A stretch of 6,957 nucleotides of DNA from an uncultured Chloroflexota bacterium (GTDB lineage: Bacteria > Chloroflexota > Dehalococcoidia > UBA3495): the NCBI GenBank assembly GCA_913020235.1, contig CAJWBT010000128.1:1-6957 (forward strand), written 5' to 3'. Position numbers and translations under genes: made by a program. Below are positions 299-6,957 of this stretch, piece after piece. Under the pieces are notes generated by a model. That model did no database searches. It was not told the DNA's origin and saw nothing but the letters and a program-made list of their open reading frames with translations. Each line of letters opens with the position of its first letter. The stretch's first letter is position 1.

Positions 299-3200
299 CT
301 ACATCTCGATAACCTGGGCATCCGGAGCAACGCCAATGAAGAGGTCGACCATCTCCGGGTGACAGGTGAACACCAAGACCTGGTTGGTTTCAGAAAGCTC
401 AGCGAAGGCTTCAGCGGCGCGCCGGGCCCGCTCTGGGTCAAAGTTCACCAACACCTCATCCACCACCACCGGAAGGCTCACCGACTGTTCTCCAAACTCC
501 CGGATCAGGCCGAACCGCAATGCCAGGTAGAGCTGCTCTCTGGTGCCGCGGCTTAGCTCTGAGGGTTGTTTACTCGCGCCCTTCTGGTCGGTCACCGTAA
601 CGGTATGTTCCCCAATGGGAGCATAGAGCCCGGGGTAGCGCTGCTCGGTAATCGCGCCAAAGAACTTCCGGGCGTGCTGAATCACCCCCGGCTGGCGCTC
701 TTTCTCGAACTTCTGGCGTGTTCGTAACAGTAACTCCTCAGCTATGGCTAGCTTCGACCACTCCCGTGCTTGCTCCCGTAGCTCCTCCAAGAGCTGGTTC
801 TTCCTAACGCGCAGGGCCGACGACTCTTCTTCGGTGGTTAGCTGGCTCAGGAGAATCGTAACCTCTCCTTGCTCACCCAAAAGGGCGCGTTGGTGAGCTT
901 CGATACTCTCGATCTGCTGGGTGAGCTGTCTTGAGTTCTCCTCCATCTGTTGACGGTTGGCTTGAGCGAGCGCTTCTTTGAAACGGTCGAACTGCTCGCC
1001 TGGGCTGCTCAACTGTTGGAGACGGACCAAGTGTCCACCGCGCTTTCGCTCCAGGTCGCGACGTTCGTCGTGCTGAGCGGCCCGGCGCCGGAATTCCTCG
1101 GGGTCATCGGTATCACCGGCGGCGAGGAGATTCGCCACAACATCCTGGGATTCCTCGAGGCGCTTCTCGAGCTGCCGGACTCGTTGACCAACACTCTCGG
1201 CCTCTTCACGGGCGATATTTCGCCGGTTTACTGAAGCCCGCACGGCATCGTACCGCGCTATCAGAGCATCCGCCGCCGAGGCAAGCTCGCTGGGCACCCC
1301 GGTCCCAATTGGTGTAGCGAACGTATCCGCGAGGGGAACAATCAGCTCCCTGTACTCGTCAATATCGTGTTCGATGGCCACGATCCGGCGCCGCATGGCC
1401 CGGACCTCCCCCAAAGCGACCCGCGCCGTCTCCACGCTGCCCCGGAATTCAACCATCGTCTCCGGGGTGAGCGTCTCGGCAAGGCCACGGTCCACCAGCC
1501 AAGCTCGCCATTCCCGCCGGGCCGCCTCCAGCCCTTCTTGGGCCGATACCTGCGCCTGGGCCGCATCATCCGCGCGGCGCTGTTGCTGTTGCACCGCTTG
1601 GGTAGCGTCGGCGAGCCGCTGCTGCAGGGAATCCCAGGCGCGAATGGCCTGGCCGGCGAAGTCCAGTTCCCCTTCGACGACATCCAGGGCTACAGCATCC
1701 GGAAAACTGAGGCCAAGGGGCGCCGCAGCATCTCGAAGCGCTGCCTCCGCTTTGGCCTCAGTCAACTTGGCTTCGCGAACCAGCTCGGCCAATGCCTGAT
1801 TGACCGGGCCGCCAGCGCCCGAGGGTGTTCGCTGACCTCTTATCAGGATGAGTCCAGCGGCGCCGAGCAGCACGATGCCCGCGATGCCACCCGTAATCAA
1901 CGCCGGCTGCCCCAGGACCGCTCCCGCAGCCATCAGTACCACCGCCATGACAGCCAGCAGCAGCGGCAAGGCCATCCTTTGCATTCCGCTGCCCTGCCGC
2001 CCGCCGTCCGCCGGGTCCGTGGATGATTCGAGCTGATCCCGGAAGTCCGCATGACGCTGGCGTTGCCTGGTGTATTCGAGCAGCCGGGTCCGAGTGGCCC
2101 GCAATGCCGCCCGCTTTTGCTCGACCGCCGCGGCATCCGTCGCCGGTTCTTCTTTCTCCTCAACGCTGTTGCGGGCCTGAAGTTCGACTTCCTGGTGCGC
2201 CTTTAGTGCCTCCTTGACCAGATCCAGATGGCTGGTGCGTTCCCGCAGTGCACCATGATTCTGGAGCAGCGTCTGCCGCGAATGTTCAACGTGGTCCCGG
2301 GTGACTATCGACGTATCAAAGGATTCGAGCCGTTCCTCGGCCCAGTCAGGACCGAGGTCTCCGAGCCTCTCAGCGAGAGAGGCTTCCAGCACCCGCAGCT
2401 CTGCCTTGCGGTCCGGCAGGTCCCTCACCGATCCGTCGAAGCTGTCGCGCCCTCGACGAATACGCTCGATGTCGTCGCGATGCTCCCATAAACCTTCGTC
2501 CTGGATTATTTCTTCGGCTGACTTCTCGGCCCGTTCGAGCTTTTCGACTTCCTCCTCCAAGTCCCGTTTTGCGTTGCCCACCCTCTCCTCGCCGGTCTCC
2601 AGCCGGTCGACGGCATTCTCGGGAAAGCTCTCGAAACTGGGAAGCGTGTCCAGCTGTTCGTCAACCTCAACGAGGGCAACCCAGTCGTCCCAGCCCTCCC
2701 TCAGCTTGGCCACATCCCCAGATTGCTGCTGCAGCTTGGTGCGATCGGACCCAGCGGAGGCCAAATCACGGCCAATATCCGCCAGACGGGCTCGGAGCCT
2801 GCCATACTCAGCGGCGTTCCCTTGCACCTGAGTGATCTGGCCGCCATTTTCGCCCAGCTCTTCGAGCAGGCCCGCGATGCGGTTTCGTCCGCGCCTGCGA
2901 TAGATCGCGTCTTTCTGTTCCGTCACCAACCGGAGCGCCTGGGGCAATCTGGCCGCTCCCATGCCCGCGCTGTAGATCTGGCTGTCCACTCCGGCGTCCT
3001 TCAGGGTATCCCCAGTTTGGAGTTCGTCGAGGCTGAAGGCAAACACGTTCCTGAACACATCCCGTGAAGCGCCGCCCAAGAGCTTGTTAAGGCCGGCCGG
3101 GTCCACCGGGGCGCCGTCGCCGGTCGCAAGACTGTACGGTCCTCCATGGGAGCCGCGGAACCGTTCTACGATGTAGCGGTGCCCGGCGTCATCCACCAGC

Positions 3201-3415
3201 GTCAGGAGGCCGCCGTGCCGCCCCCCGGCAAGCGGAGGGTAGTGAGATCCACTCAACCGGGGGAAACCGAATAGGACCATCCGGATGAACGCAAGAAGCG
3301 TGCTTTTACCGGCCTCGTTTGGTCCTTGGATCACGGTAATCGGCCGGGTGAATGGGCCGATCTTTTTATCCGACAAAGGACCGAATCCCTCTATATGCAG
3401 CTCCTCGATCTTCAT
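299..3415 (-). CDS. yhaN: YhaN-like AAA ATPase (SbcC/Rad50-type) with central membrane hairpin
   Basis: The protein has 1038 residues and is an SMC/Rad50-type ATPase that probably drives the nuclease encoded just upstream in DNA end processing or repair. The N-terminus has the YhaN-type AAA start, with Walker A GPNEAGKST at 31-39. Long charged, heptad-rich coiled coils fill roughly 200-460 and 560-900. Between them lie two hydrophobic segments, about 481-501 and 504-526, that look like a membrane hairpin. The C-terminal half-ATPase has the ABC-type signature LSRGTREQ (954-961), Walker B LPVVVDE (981-987) and a switch histidine H1019 in TCHPEM. The only cysteine I find is C1018, so there is no CxxC zinc hook as in Rad50/SbcC; known YhaN proteins also carry a mid-protein hydrophobic pair. 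The ATG start overlaps the yhaO stop (ATGA) and has a good GAGGA ribosome site, so the two are translationally coupled. Function is inferred from family and pairing. Confidence 0.92.
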   Translation of the reverse strand: MKIEELHIEGFGPLSDKKIGPFTRPITVIQGPNEAGKSTLLAFIRMVLFGFPRLSGSHYPPLAGGRHGGLLTLVDDAGHRYIVERFRGSHGGPYSLATGDGAPVDPAGLNKLLGGASRDVFRNVFAFSLDELQTGDTLKDAGVDSQIYSAGMGAARLPQALRLVTEQKDAIYRRRGRNRIAGLLEELGENGGQITQVQGNAAEYGRLRARLADIGRDLASAGSDRTKLQQQSGDVAKLREGWDDWVALVEVDEQLDTLPSFESFPENAVDRLETGEERVGNAKRDLEEEVEKLERAEKSAEEIIQDEGLWEHRDDIERIRRGRDSFDGSVRDLPDRKAELRVLEASLAERLGDLGPDWAEERLESFDTSIVTRDHVEHSRQTLLQNHGALRERTSHLDLVKEALKAHQEVELQARNSVEEKEEPATDAAAVEQKRAALRATRTRLLEYTRQRQRHADFRDQLESSTDPADGGRQGSGMQRMALPLLLAVMAVVLMAAGAVLGQPALITGGIAGIVLLGAAGLILIRGQRTPSGAGGPVNQALAELVREAKLTEAKAEAALRDAAAPLGLSFPDAVALDVVEGELDFAGQAIRAWDSLQQRLADATQAVQQQQRRADDAAQAQVSAQEGLEAARREWRAWLVDRGLAETLTPETMVEFRGSVETARVALGEVRAMRRRIVAIEHDIDEYRELIVPLADTFATPIGTGVPSELASAADALIARYDAVRASVNRRNIAREEAESVGQRVRQLEKRLEESQDVVANLLAAGDTDDPEEFRRRAAQHDERRDLERKRGGHLVRLQQLSSPGEQFDRFKEALAQANRQQMEENSRQLTQQIESIEAHQRALLGEQGEVTILLSQLTTEEESSALRVRKNQLLEELREQAREWSKLAIAEELLLRTRQKFEKERQPGVIQHARKFFGAITEQRYPGLYAPIGEHTVTVTDQKGASKQPSELSRGTREQLYLALRFGLIREFGEQSVSLPVVVDEVLVNFDPERARRAAEAFAELSETNQVLVFTCHPEMVDLFIGVAPDAQVIEM

Positions 3416-4683
3416 GGCCCGTCCTCGTCCAGCAACTGGGCGAGGCAGATCGCCTCGGCGCCGGCCATCAAGTCTCGCAGGTCATCGTCGGAGGGTAGGC
3501 TATCGCGCAGGTAACGGCCGGAATTACCGCGTCCGTACAGCTCCTGCAATGTTTCGCGCATCTCGGCGAGAACCTCGGGATTCTCCAGCGATTCGCCACA
3601 GAGCCGGAGCAGGTCCCCAACGAAGTCGGTCCGCTCAAGCTGCTGGCTACGATCGAAGGGCGAGGCGGTGGACGCCTGTATCCGCTCGCACCAGAGGAAG
3701 GGGCGTTCCTGAGTCCCGGTCTCATTGATCCTCGCGAGAAGTTCGTCGGTAAACCCCGGGCGGATCAGCGAGTCATGTAGCTGCCCCCGGCCACCCAGCA
3801 CCAGCCTGAAAATCACGCTTCGTCTGTCAGCTTCTTCCCGGCACCTGGCCATCTCGCTTTCGATGGCATCAACCAACGACTGCTCGGCTTCAAGCTCACT
3901 TATGTCAAGCTCCAGCAACGCCCAGCGGACCAGGTCCACGGCTCGAAAATCGAGATGTACCTGCCTGGAATCGTTTACTTCGACGAGGTACACGCCACGC
4001 GGGCCTCGCTCGTTGGGGTGCCGGCCCTGGGGGTTCCCGGGGTACACGACAGAGGGGTTGATCTCGCGGAGGACCCGGCGGGTGTGGACGTGACCCAGAG
4101 CCCAGTAGTCGATGGCGGTCCGTTCCAGGTCGCCCAAGCTACAGGGGGCATAGGCATCGTGAGCCGGGTCGCTGTCAACGTTGGCGTGGAGCAGCCCTAT
4201 GTTGAACGGCCCGCGTTCGACGGCGCCGAATCGTGGCACCAGATTCTCCCGAATCTCCCGCTGCGGGTAGCTGATCCCGTAGACGACGGCGCGATCAGGC
4301 TCATCCTCGAAAATCGGGAACCGCTCCACGTCGGCGCCAAACCGGTGACATCCCTCTGGGAAATCAAGCCGGGCTTCCCATCCGTCGAGTGGGTCGTGGT
4401 TACCGTGGCAAATGAACGAGCGTATGCCCTCTTCTTTGAGCCGGTTCAAACCATCGACGAACTTGAGCTGGGCCCTGAGGCTTCGGTCGGCGCTGTCGAA
4501 TACGTCCCCGGCAACAAGAAGCGCGTCAACCCGCTCCCGGATACACAGGTCGACGATGTTCTCGTAGGCAGCGAAGGTGGCGTCATACAATGTGCCGGCG
4601 ATCGCCGAGTCGAGGCTGCGCAGGCCGCTGAACGGACTGTCGAGGTGCAAGTCTGCGGCGTGCACGAATCTTAGGCGTGTCAT
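3412..4683 (-). CDS. yhaO: YhaO-like metallophosphoesterase, DNA repair exonuclease (SbcD/Mre11-type)
   Basis: This 423-residue calcineurin-like phosphoesterase is the probable nuclease subunit of a YhaO-YhaN complex acting on DNA ends. The metal-binding motifs of the family are present in order: DLH (D11, H13) in HAADLHLDSPF, GD (D60) in LLVAGDVFD, GNHD (94-97), H166 in GLLHANVD, and GHVH (197-200), then YPGNPQGRHPNE (214-225), typical of SbcD/YhaO proteins. The catalytic domain fills about 1-240. The remaining 180 residues form the helical, charged C-terminal region that in this family contacts DNA and the ATPase partner. It is the first gene of the operon, and its TGA stop overlaps the ATG of yhaN. 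The ATG start is supported by the immediate MTRLRFVHAADLH start usual in the family; the ribosome site is weak (GGGGAT about 11 bases upstream). General SbcD is the alternative name, but the partner's membrane hairpin favours YhaO. Confidence 0.93.
   Translation of the reverse strand: MTRLRFVHAADLHLDSPFSGLRSLDSAIAGTLYDATFAAYENIVDLCIRERVDALLVAGDVFDSADRSLRAQLKFVDGLNRLKEEGIRSFICHGNHDPLDGWEARLDFPEGCHRFGADVERFPIFEDEPDRAVVYGISYPQREIRENLVPRFGAVERGPFNIGLLHANVDSDPAHDAYAPCSLGDLERTAIDYWALGHVHTRRVLREINPSVVYPGNPQGRHPNERGPRGVYLVEVNDSRQVHLDFRAVDLVRWALLELDISELEAEQSLVDAIESEMARCREEADRRSVIFRLVLGGRGQLHDSLIRPGFTDELLARINETGTQERPFLWCERIQASTASPFDRSQQLERTDFVGDLLRLCGESLENPEVLAEMRETLQELYGRGNSGRYLRDSLPSDDDLRDLMAGAEAICLAQLLDEDGP
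3422..3426 (-). promoter_or_regulatory. Ribosome binding site of yhaN
   Basis: On the minus strand GAGGA lies six bases before the ATG at 3413-3415, inside the last codons of yhaO. Together with the ATGA overlap it fixes the yhaN start and indicates translational coupling within one transcript. Confidence 0.65.
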
Positions 4684-4948: not shown

Positions 4949-5097
4949 TTCACATCGGCGAAATTGTGCGACATCCCTCCCTCCTCTCGTCTTTCCGGCG
5001 AAGGCCGGAATCCAGACAAGTGCTAGCTCGATTCCCCTTCCGCGGAAGGGCCGGGATGACCGACCGGGTATCAAGCCATCTGCGAGACACCAGGCTA
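4949..5097. repeat. Dispersed palindromic repeat, copy 2
   Basis: This is the second copy, in the same orientation, of the repeat at about 152-289. Hairpin one is conserved (4993-4999 with 5004-5010), but its loop has changed from GCAA to GAAG. Hairpin two is replaced by a perfect 16-bp palindrome, CCCTTCCGCGGAAGGG, at 5035-5050. The outer ATCCAG/CTGGAT helix has decayed. A further inverted pair, GACACC (5086-5091) with GGTGTC (5105-5110), lies at its right edge, just beyond the stop of the selenoprotein gene. Like copy 1, its right end abuts the 3' end of a minus-strand gene, here about 30 bases from the stop codon. No open reading frame with coding character crosses it. Confidence 0.78.
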
Positions 5098-5128: not shown

Positions 5129-5701
5129 TCAGATCGCACCCAGAACATCCAGCAGCTGGTCCACCGTGGGCCGATCGTGAGGTGCGGGGCCCCGGTGTTC
5201 AAACCGCACGACGCCTCGCCCGTCGATGACGAAGTCGCCGCCCCCTTGCCGCAGGTCGCTCCTCTGGAAATGGTACCGGCGCCCCCGGGCCGCGAGCTTG
5301 ATGTAGGTCCAGATGGTCCCCGGACTGAACACCTGTCCCAGGCTCCCCTTTCCCAGCCGGTAGGCCCGGTATACATCCCGCTCCGGATCGGACAACAAGG
5401 GAAAGGGCAACTGCATCTGACGGGACATCTGGAACAGCCGGTCCCGGGGCTCGAAGGAAACCGCCAACACAACGCCGTTTCGCGCTTGAATCTCCGGATG
5501 ATGCCGTCGCAACTGCGACAGGTGCTCCCGTCAAGGCAGTCAAGCGTAGTGGCGAAGGAACACCAGGACCACCTTGCCGCCCCGAGAGTCCTGAAGGGAG
5601 AGGAATTGGCCGTCGGCCGTCGGCAAGGTGAAATCGGGCGCGGTCTCGCCCAGCAAGAGACCGGCTTGACCACCAGGTTGCTTGGCCACACCAGGGCTCA
5701 C
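5129..5701 (-). CDS. selL: SelL-like peroxiredoxin-family selenoprotein with UxxU motif (two in-frame UGA read as Sec)
   Basis: The frame encodes 190 residues of a thioredoxin-fold AhpC/TSA-like redoxin if two internal TGA codons are read through. The N-terminal strand region reads LGETAPDFTLPTADG (17-31), followed by GGKVVLVFLRHYA (41-53), then TGA (5540-5542), Leu, Pro, TGA (5531-5533), then REHLSQLRRHHPEI. Related proteins have CxxC here, so the TGAs replace exactly the two redox cysteines, giving U54-L-P-U57. The fold continues in the same frame through GVVLAVSFEP, FPLLSDPERDVYRAYRLG and GGGDFVIDGRGVVRFEHRG to a TGA stop after LLDVLGAI. No frameshift is needed. The published SelL family has this UxxU diselenide motif and, in bacteria, one SECIS inside the gene; a matching stem-loop follows. 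The GTG start at 5699-5701 is the most upstream one after an in-frame stop (5777-5779); it has no clear ribosome site, and GTG at 5687-5689 is an alternative. The expected role is thiol/peroxide redox chemistry in the cytoplasm. A cysteine-loss pseudogene is the main alternative. Confidence 0.85.
5495..5530 (-). promoter_or_regulatory. Candidate bacterial SECIS element in selL
   Basis: Immediately after the second UGA the mRNA can fold into a two-part stem-loop. The inner stem is 7 bp (5515-5521 with 5504-5510, sequence CTGTCGC/GCGACGG with one G-U pair) capped by the tetraloop AGUU. An outer stem of 4 bp pairs 5527-5530 (CGGG) with 5495-5498 (UCCG), separated from the inner one by a 5x5 internal loop. 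Bacterial SECIS elements place a G in the first two loop positions and put the loop about 16-37 bases after the UGA. Here G is the second loop base, and the loop starts 16 bases after the second UGA and 25 after the first, so one element could serve both codons. Folding was done by eye. Confidence 0.65.
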
Positions 5702-5965: not shown

Positions 5966-6817
5966 ATGGAATATCCCATGGTGATCGACAGCCATTGTCA
6001 CATCCTTCCACCAGGCTTTGAGCACCGGCGCGCCGAACTGTTGGCGCGCGATGCCACCTTTGCCGCCCTCTTCTCCAGGGCCGGCGCCCCGATGGCCACC
6101 GCCGAGTCGTTGATCGACGCCATGGACCGGGCCCAGGTTTCCCGAGCCGTGGTCATGGGAATCGGCTGGTGCGATCGGGCGCTGGCCGAGGAAGTCAACG
6201 ACTACATCGCCGAATCCGTATCCAGGCACCCGGACCGGTTGACCGGCTTTTGCTCGGTCAACCCGGCACGGGGAGACGGGGCCGCGGCTGAAATGGAGCG
6301 CTGCGCCGCAGCCGGACTGCGGGGAGTCGGCGAGTTGCACCCGGACACCCAGGGATTTGACATCACCGATAAGCCCGGCCTGGCCCCGGTCATGGATACG
6401 GCGCTGCGGCTGGGTCTCCCGGTGCTGGTGCACTCTTCGGAGCCGGTGGGCCACCAGTACCCCGGCAAGGGCCGGACCACGCCCGGGAAGCTCTACCGTT
6501 TCATCGAGAATTTCCCGGAAAACCCGGTCGTCTGTGCCCATTGGGGTGGCGGGCTTCCATTCTACGCCATGATGCCGGAGGTGCCGAAGGTTATCGAGAA
6601 CGTCTACTTCGACATGGCCGCGTCGCCCTTCCTGTACCGGCCCCAGGTCGTCGCCACCGTGGCCGGTCTGGTGGGCGCGGATAAGGTCTTGTTCGCCACG
6701 GACTACCCCCTTATTGAGCACGGGCGGCTCATGCGGCAGGTCGAGGAGTCCGGCCTGGATTCGTCGGCCCTGGAGGCCATCCTGGGAGGGAACGCCGCCC
6801 GCCTCCTCGGGCTGTAA
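5966..6817 (+). CDS. Amidohydrolase-family TIM-barrel metal-dependent hydrolase (amidohydrolase 2 type)
   Basis: This is a 283-residue protein of the amidohydrolase superfamily, closest in look to the amidohydrolase 2 group that includes ACMSD-like decarboxylases and dicarboxylate lactone hydrolases. The metal and catalytic motifs are in order: the first-strand HxH in IDSHCH (H10, H12), GELHP with E123, LPVLVHSSEP with H156, CAHWGGG with H192, and LFATDYPL with D246. The C-terminus ends with ILGGNAARLLGL, the usual final helix of the family. The length is normal for the group. The substrate cannot be told from sequence: hydrolysis or non-oxidative decarboxylation of a cyclic or aromatic acid are both possible. 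The ORF opens at ATG 5966, but the TATAAT just upstream suggests ATG 5978 (MVIDSHCH) is used; a GGA lies seven bases before it. The following mug-like gene starts two bases after its TAA stop, suggesting co-transcription. Confidence 0.88.
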   Translation: MEYPMVIDSHCHILPPGFEHRRAELLARDATFAALFSRAGAPMATAESLIDAMDRAQVSRAVVMGIGWCDRALAEEVNDYIAESVSRHPDRLTGFCSVNPARGDGAAAEMERCAAAGLRGVGELHPDTQGFDITDKPGLAPVMDTALRLGLPVLVHSSEPVGHQYPGKGRTTPGKLYRFIENFPENPVVCAHWGGGLPFYAMMPEVPKVIENVYFDMAASPFLYRPQVVATVAGLVGADKVLFATDYPLIEHGRLMRQVEESGLDSSALEAILGGNAARLLGL

Positions 6818-6819
6818 GG

Positions 6820-6957
6820 GTGGCTAACTTCGGCGGCACCCTGCCGGACTACCTGGAAGAAGGCCTGGACATCGTGCTCGTGGGGTTGAACCCCTCCGAG
6901 TACTCGGTCAAGGCGGGCCACTACTTCGCCAACCCCCGCAACCGCTTTTGGGCGGCC
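6820..6957 (+). CDS. mug: Mismatch-specific uracil-DNA glycosylase, Mug/TDG family (5' end, partial)
   Basis: The first 46 residues of a base-excision repair enzyme are visible, cut by the window edge. After a short lead (LPDYLEEGLDIVLV) comes GLNPSEYS (22-29), which matches the active-site motif I of Mug/TDG enzymes (GINP type; N24 is at the position of the catalytic asparagine). It is followed by GHYFANPRNRFW (33-44), which matches the conserved substrate-pocket segment G-x-x-F-A-x-P-x-N-R-F-W. Members remove uracil or thymine from G:U and G:T mismatches and related adducts. The GTG start at 6820-6822 lies two bases after the amidohydrolase TAA, so translation is probably coupled; only a weak AGGG precedes it. 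The family call is strong from these two motifs, although most of the protein lies outside the window. Confidence 0.85.
   Translation, partial: MANFGGTLPDYLEEGLDIVLVGLNPSEYSVKAGHYFANPRNRFWAA

Follow-up and report, generated by a model that had tools for sequence, protein, structure and literature searches.

We describe a SelL-related, peroxiredoxin-like gene on the minus strand of a 6,957-nt stretch of DNA (hereafter the window) from an uncultured bacterium of the Chloroflexota (contig CAJWBT010000128.1, assembly GCA_913020235.1), in whose redox motif two in-frame UGA codons are very likely both read as selenocysteine (Sec, U). A single hairpin at 5521-5504 is predicted to act as the Sec insertion sequence (SECIS) for both, and the two Sec would form a reversible diselenide pair. 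This reading builds on the frame itself, the family match, the occurrence of the same U-x-x-U (UxxU) motif in relatives, a covarying hairpin, its spacing relative to both UGAs and the Sec machinery of relatives' genomes; Sec insertion and the diselenide are what we infer from these sequence features. Bacterial SelL proteins with UxxU have already been published, and the kind of protein is known; what is added here is the lineage, one covarying hairpin with a spacing suited to both UGAs, and repeated switching between Sec and Cys at the second site.

The reading frame and its protein family

The initial annotation had proposed one minus-strand frame from 5701 to 5129, open except for two TGAs in the context RHYA-TGA-LP-TGA-REHL. 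This is confirmed: the sole internal stops are TGA 5542-5540 and TGA 5533-5531 (translated context VFLRHYA-TGA-LP-TGA-REHLSQLRR), both at the position of the CxxC of a peroxiredoxin-like protein, and read-through yields 190 aa from a GTG start that is assumed, having been picked from the length of relatives. Conservation is given below over aligned homologous rows, 58 of which carry UGA at one or both sites (Sec-type rows).

5129..5701, minus strand: SelL-related peroxiredoxin-like gene, 190 aa with U54 and U57; GTG start (assumed), TGA stop
5540..5542, minus strand: first in-frame UGA, codon 54; TGA in 57 of the 58 Sec-type rows, TCA in the remaining one (L069)
5531..5533, minus strand: second in-frame UGA, codon 57; TGA in 21, Cys in 36 and Ser in 1 of the 58 Sec-type rows
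5129..5131, minus strand: TGA terminating the same gene; TAG in L004 and TAA in L005 at equal codon distance past residue 54

The read-through protein matches the Pfam domain PF00578 (AhpC-TSA) with 88.3 bits against a cut-off of 26, and also Redoxin and AhpC-TSA_2. It passes the curated cut-off of the NCBIfam model NF040769 (SelL-related redox protein; 148.5 versus 120 bits), with residues 20-186 aligned to positions 2-172 of the 173 in the model, as do both relatives tested alongside it (L001, L005). The SelL-type assignment made earlier is thus likely, and the window protein appears tied to animal SelL solely through the name of this curated model. SelL proteins are described as forming a diselenide bond and as occurring in fish, invertebrates and marine bacteria (PMC2397514), which bears out, for marine bacteria, the earlier statement that the UxxU family has bacterial members. 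The likeness to SelL, a peroxiredoxin-like protein whose two Sec are separated by two residues, lies in the two UGAs of the window gene, very likely read as Sec, and in its peroxiredoxin-type domain and fold. In eukaryotes the SECIS is located in the 3'UTR, and vertebrate SelL inserts both Sec via a single one (PMC3316567), whereas the window gene would use a bacterial, in-frame hairpin just past the UGAs. A prokaryotic peroxiredoxin-like thiol:disulfide oxidoreductase with UxxC or UxxU, sharing the PF00578 domain and both motif types with the window family, is tabulated in PMC9312934 and PMC13188914, in whose main texts, as far as these were available, the word stem Chloroflex is absent. The Prx-like 2 group of the Global Ocean Sampling survey similarly has several UxxU among UxxC sequences but is weakly similar to PF04592 (PMC2398784); the window protein matches PF00578 and gave no PF04592 match at E 0.001, the survey itself having accepted weaker matches.

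The nearest relatives found in a scan of genome contigs are all from Chloroflexota: five from Chloroflexi, Dehalococcoidia or SAR202 bacteria, 60-67% identical, with the active site AULPU in four and AULPC in one. Genome searches recovered the gene in 19 of 50 genomes of the GTDB family (E 1e-20; searches from G001 and from G005 gave the identical 50), in the same 19 and no further carriers among 250 genomes of the order (E 1e-35), in 20 of 400 of the phylum (E 1e-28), and in 59 of 393 of the class (E 1e-15, loose enough to admit more distant redoxins). A search of a viral collection found no relative. These matches furnish 66 distinct active-site rows, window included: 36 UxxC, 20 UxxU, 8 CxxC, 1 UxxS and 1 SxxU. 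As the searches contributed at most their 30, 30 and 20 best matches, these shares are not natural frequencies. Duplicates (L020, L060-L063) and partial copies without the active site (L024, L077) were excluded before counting. The homologous columns 54 and 57 hold Cys or Sec, as had been expected, bar one Ser in each. One database protein, P0012, has SxxC at the site; it is a full-length homologue without Sec on a 19.7 kb contig. Nine rows (L035-L038, L040-L042, L044 and L047) form a distinct UPFC group (RGF.UPFCRR) that shares the AGUU hairpin, and in L044 the frame continues for 387 codons past the Sec, which suggests a fusion.

The 26 codons upstream of the first TGA are under protein-level selection, as are those past the second: compared with 17 relatives (the damaged copy L075 also being excluded), the window shows 0.20-0.36 non-synonymous versus 0.40-0.90 synonymous differences per site upstream. 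That the TGA pair was not placed by random decay, as the initial annotation had argued, is borne out by this selection and by the TGAs at both columns in 20 of the 66 rows. Hence a pseudogene or a sequencing error, with Cys codons misread or decayed, is extremely improbable: a broken relative copy (L075) does exist, but the same two codons recur in different genomes, the rest of the window frame is intact and selected, and the hairpin covaries. A genome-wide reassignment of TGA, e.g. to Trp or Gly, which would make these codons ordinary, is hardly credible either. We found no point in its support, the homologous columns hold Cys (once Ser) and not Trp or Gly, and it was rejected on the gene's own terminal TGA, which stands where L004 has TAG and L005 TAA.

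The hairpin downstream of the UGA codons

The sequence past the UGAs, which aligns without gaps across the Sec-type rows, contains a putative SECIS:

5504..5521, minus strand: predicted SECIS hairpin, 7 bp with loop AGUU, from covariation and the published spacing rule
5511..5514, minus strand: its apical loop AGUU; G30 and U32, counted from the first UGA, are invariant in 58 sequences

The stem comprises seven pairs between positions 22-28 and 33-39 from the first UGA. Over the 58 Sec-type rows its covariation score is 0.550 versus 0.215 after shuffling, with none of 500 shuffles scoring as high; the slid controls keep the relatedness of the rows and the shuffles do not. Pairing is retained in 90.1% of 406 cells, and each pair is changed on both sides somewhere (72 such cells). 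No shuffle out of 500 reaches either the pairing percentage or the count of changed cells, while 16 of 500 reach seven changed pairs. The halves accordingly differ widely in sequence, e.g. CUGUCGC/GCGACGG in the window, GUGGCAC/GUGCCGA in L026 (six pairs) and GCUUUGC/GCAAAGC in L091. The stem-loop overlies the codons TCG CAG TTG, which are free of synonymous change in 18 rows of the window's clade, against 0.40-0.90 synonymous differences per site when the window is compared with the other 17. The stem is not conserved in the CxxC rows (at most four pairs in 8 of 8, tallied position by position, the alignment of four of these rows being gapped and unused). In the UxxC rows L028, L031, L034 and L043 the best hairpin lies 5 or 6 nt further downstream (weakly in L028), with its loop 30 or 31 nt from the UGA versus 25, a natural change of SECIS register; these rows were retained in the covariation count and lower it.

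The bacterial SECIS rule, as given in PMC13188914, asks for 16-37 nt from UGA to loop, a loop of 3-9 nt, a stem of 4-16 bp, a G in the first two loop positions and an energy of at most -7.5 kcal/mol. The window's loop and 7-bp stem agree with this, as do the distances from the first (25 nt) and second (16 nt) UGA and the energy, which is -9.8 kcal/mol for the stem-loop alone and -10.5 in a 28-nt piece. An Rfam scan of the window gave no match, and a tRNA search in it found none.

Machinery for Sec insertion is found in relatives. Of five relatives' genomes, four have a tRNA-Sec scoring at least 66 bits and four a selA over its cut-off; selB and selD each pass theirs in three genomes. All four components occur together in G001 and G002, with a partial set in G003-G005. 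Each of the three selD genes has an internal TGA, and the same hairpin finder, applied to selD, reports a hairpin that is strong in L056 and L057 and weak in L055. The earlier claim that both TGAs are read as Sec is thus supported by the NF040769 match, the covarying hairpin and this machinery, with insertion itself remaining an interpretation. In the 50-genome family selA is present in 43 and tRNA-Sec in 40; of its 19 carriers of the gene 12 have selA, 12 have tRNA-Sec and 14 have at least one of them.

Several observations weigh against the Sec reading. As implemented here (unbroken stems only, -7.5 kcal/mol), the SECIS rule is passed by 37 of the 58 Sec-type and 17 of the 20 UxxU rows, and also by the CxxC row L048, via a different hairpin, and by 140 of 1672 codons (8.4%) in the window's other genes. 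Because so many unrelated codons pass, the rule alone is weak evidence, and it is the covariation that carries the case. Folded alone, the window hairpin is not significant (z -0.82); single-sequence folding is therefore uninformative, and covariation was used instead. In the first set of rows, the 18 with UxxU show weak covariation, with one pair changed on both sides, because their stem hardly varies. The machinery was examined in the genomes of relatives, and for the window's own genome it is presumed. Moreover, among the 19 carriers seven are without selA, seven without tRNA-Sec and five without both, whereas selA is present in 31 of 31 family non-carriers. With 31 of 31 non-carriers and 12 of 19 carriers holding selA, its presence does not track the gene in this family, and phylogenetic profiling therefore lends no support. 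The gaps in carriers possibly stem from incomplete assemblies, six of the seven selA-less ones being 1.4-2.1 Mb in size; however, the small non-carriers G425 (1.3 Mb) and G426 (1.7 Mb) do have selA. Finally, one TAA and two TAG codons interrupt the frame of the UxxU copy L075, and L069 has Ser (TCA) at position 54 in an assembly (G424) with neither selA nor tRNA-Sec detected.

As to the genomes and copies concerned, the selA-less family members (G420, G005, G421, G424, G429, G432 and G439) are all carriers; L075 is probably a dead gene, though its genome G428 has selA and tRNA-Sec; and L069 retains TGA at the second site together with an intact hairpin.

Switching at the second site and the proposed roles of the two residues

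The first Sec is nearly fixed, whereas the second alternates with Cys. UxxU is found in 16 of the 19 rows of the window's clade and recurs elsewhere in L081 and L083; the sisters L004 (TGA) and L005 (TGT) differ by a single base at the second-site codon. On a tree built with both active-site residues masked, a single UxxU clade is rejected (approximately unbiased test, p-AU 3.6e-82), and the UxxU state requires at least four changes on well supported branches, which the tree does not divide into gains and losses. It appears probable that one bacterial SECIS decodes two Sec nine bases apart in a single pass and, being placed within range of both UGAs, allows single-base changes to turn the second residue from Cys to Sec or back while the RNA signal stays as it is, and that this has happened several times in Chloroflexota. 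Mechanistically, SelB with Sec-tRNA would engage the hairpin when UGA 54 occupies the A site of the ribosome, with the loop 25 nt away; after the ribosome has advanced nine bases, the same hairpin would be reused for UGA 57 at 16 nt, the shortest distance that the SECIS rule allows.

An alternative is that only the first UGA is decoded, the second mostly acting as a stop, with UxxU being regulatory or slightly harmful and the product usually short. The position of the second UGA at the lower spacing limit and the Cys found at that site in most Sec-type rows (36 of 58) would agree with this. Nevertheless, in the window's clade selection at the protein level acts on the codons past the second UGA, UxxU is held through most of that clade and recurs outside it, and L069 retains the second TGA without the first, which together render this alternative improbable.

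A structure model (mean predicted local distance difference test score, pLDDT, 78.4) shows a peroxiredoxin fold, with peroxiredoxins as the best fold matches; UxxU lies after strand 43-49, where the first helix begins. The fold is common to the AhpE/Bcp/PrxQ peroxiredoxins. AhpE, however, has Thr-x-x-Cys where the window has U-x-x-U, with U54 on the Thr column and U57 on the Cys column; the window, with a UGA codon and not Thr at the former, thus departs from the TxxC type. In the favoured assignment the nearly invariant U54, which occupies the position of the thioredoxin-type nucleophile, would attack a peroxide or an oxidised thiol as substrate, and U57 would resolve it as a Se-Se bond, which some reductant would then reset; U54 is taken as the main nucleophile because it is the conserved one of the two. 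The opposite assignment, in which both Sec are made but U57 reacts with the peroxide and U54 resolves, as in a Sec peroxiredoxin, is a real rival, if a somewhat unlikely one. It draws on the alignment of U57 with the AhpE Cys, which we take to be the catalytic one, on the fold matches and on the SxxU of L069. Set against it is the pattern expected were U54 the main nucleophile: 57 of 58 Sec-type rows retain U54, while U57 is often Cys and once Ser.

Genomic context, annotation and implications

The remaining features in the window concern its neighbourhood and the way in which the gene is called.

5966..6817, plus strand: divergent amidohydrolase (PF04909), present in 16 of the 18 related loci compared; listed for context
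5129..5512, minus strand: shortened open reading frame (ORF) from a TTG overlapping the SECIS loop, 127 aa; 89 of the 120 homologous proteins listed start at this TTG

After the amidohydrolase a uracil-DNA glycosylase gene begins, and the two occupy 5966-6957. The neighbours (amidohydrolase, uracil-DNA glycosylase, HhH-GPD protein, LigT and aldehyde dehydrogenase) offer no functional clue. On the minus strand at 299-4683 lie genes for an SbcC/Rad50-like ATPase and an SbcD/Mre11-like nuclease, with NCBIfam matches below curated cut-offs; this pair is flanked, one copy per side, by an intergenic repeat at 169-230 and 4974-5035 (77% identical, core CCGGCGNNNGCCGG).

The initial annotation had also foreseen that a mechanical ORF call would keep only the part past the second TGA, from a TTG, and this holds: the call spans 5129-5512, and the active site is lost. 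Nearly all listed database copies are cut short in the same manner. Among the 120 homologous proteins examined out of 515, which include the window's own short ORF (P0002), 117 start past the second UGA, one between the UGAs and two before the first, namely P0012 and P0105. Since the conserved UUG over the SECIS loop is called as a start, databases carry these proteins without their active site, and the family thereby exposes a systematic annotation fault at this Sec site.

Two Sec within one redox motif are rare, and our literature search, within the texts available to it, found no account of how one hairpin lets a bacterial ribosome read two UGAs spaced nine bases apart. Natural members of the family carry UGA at the first site alone, at both sites or, in a single case, at the second alone, with a hairpin in the same place, which makes SECIS spacing directly testable.
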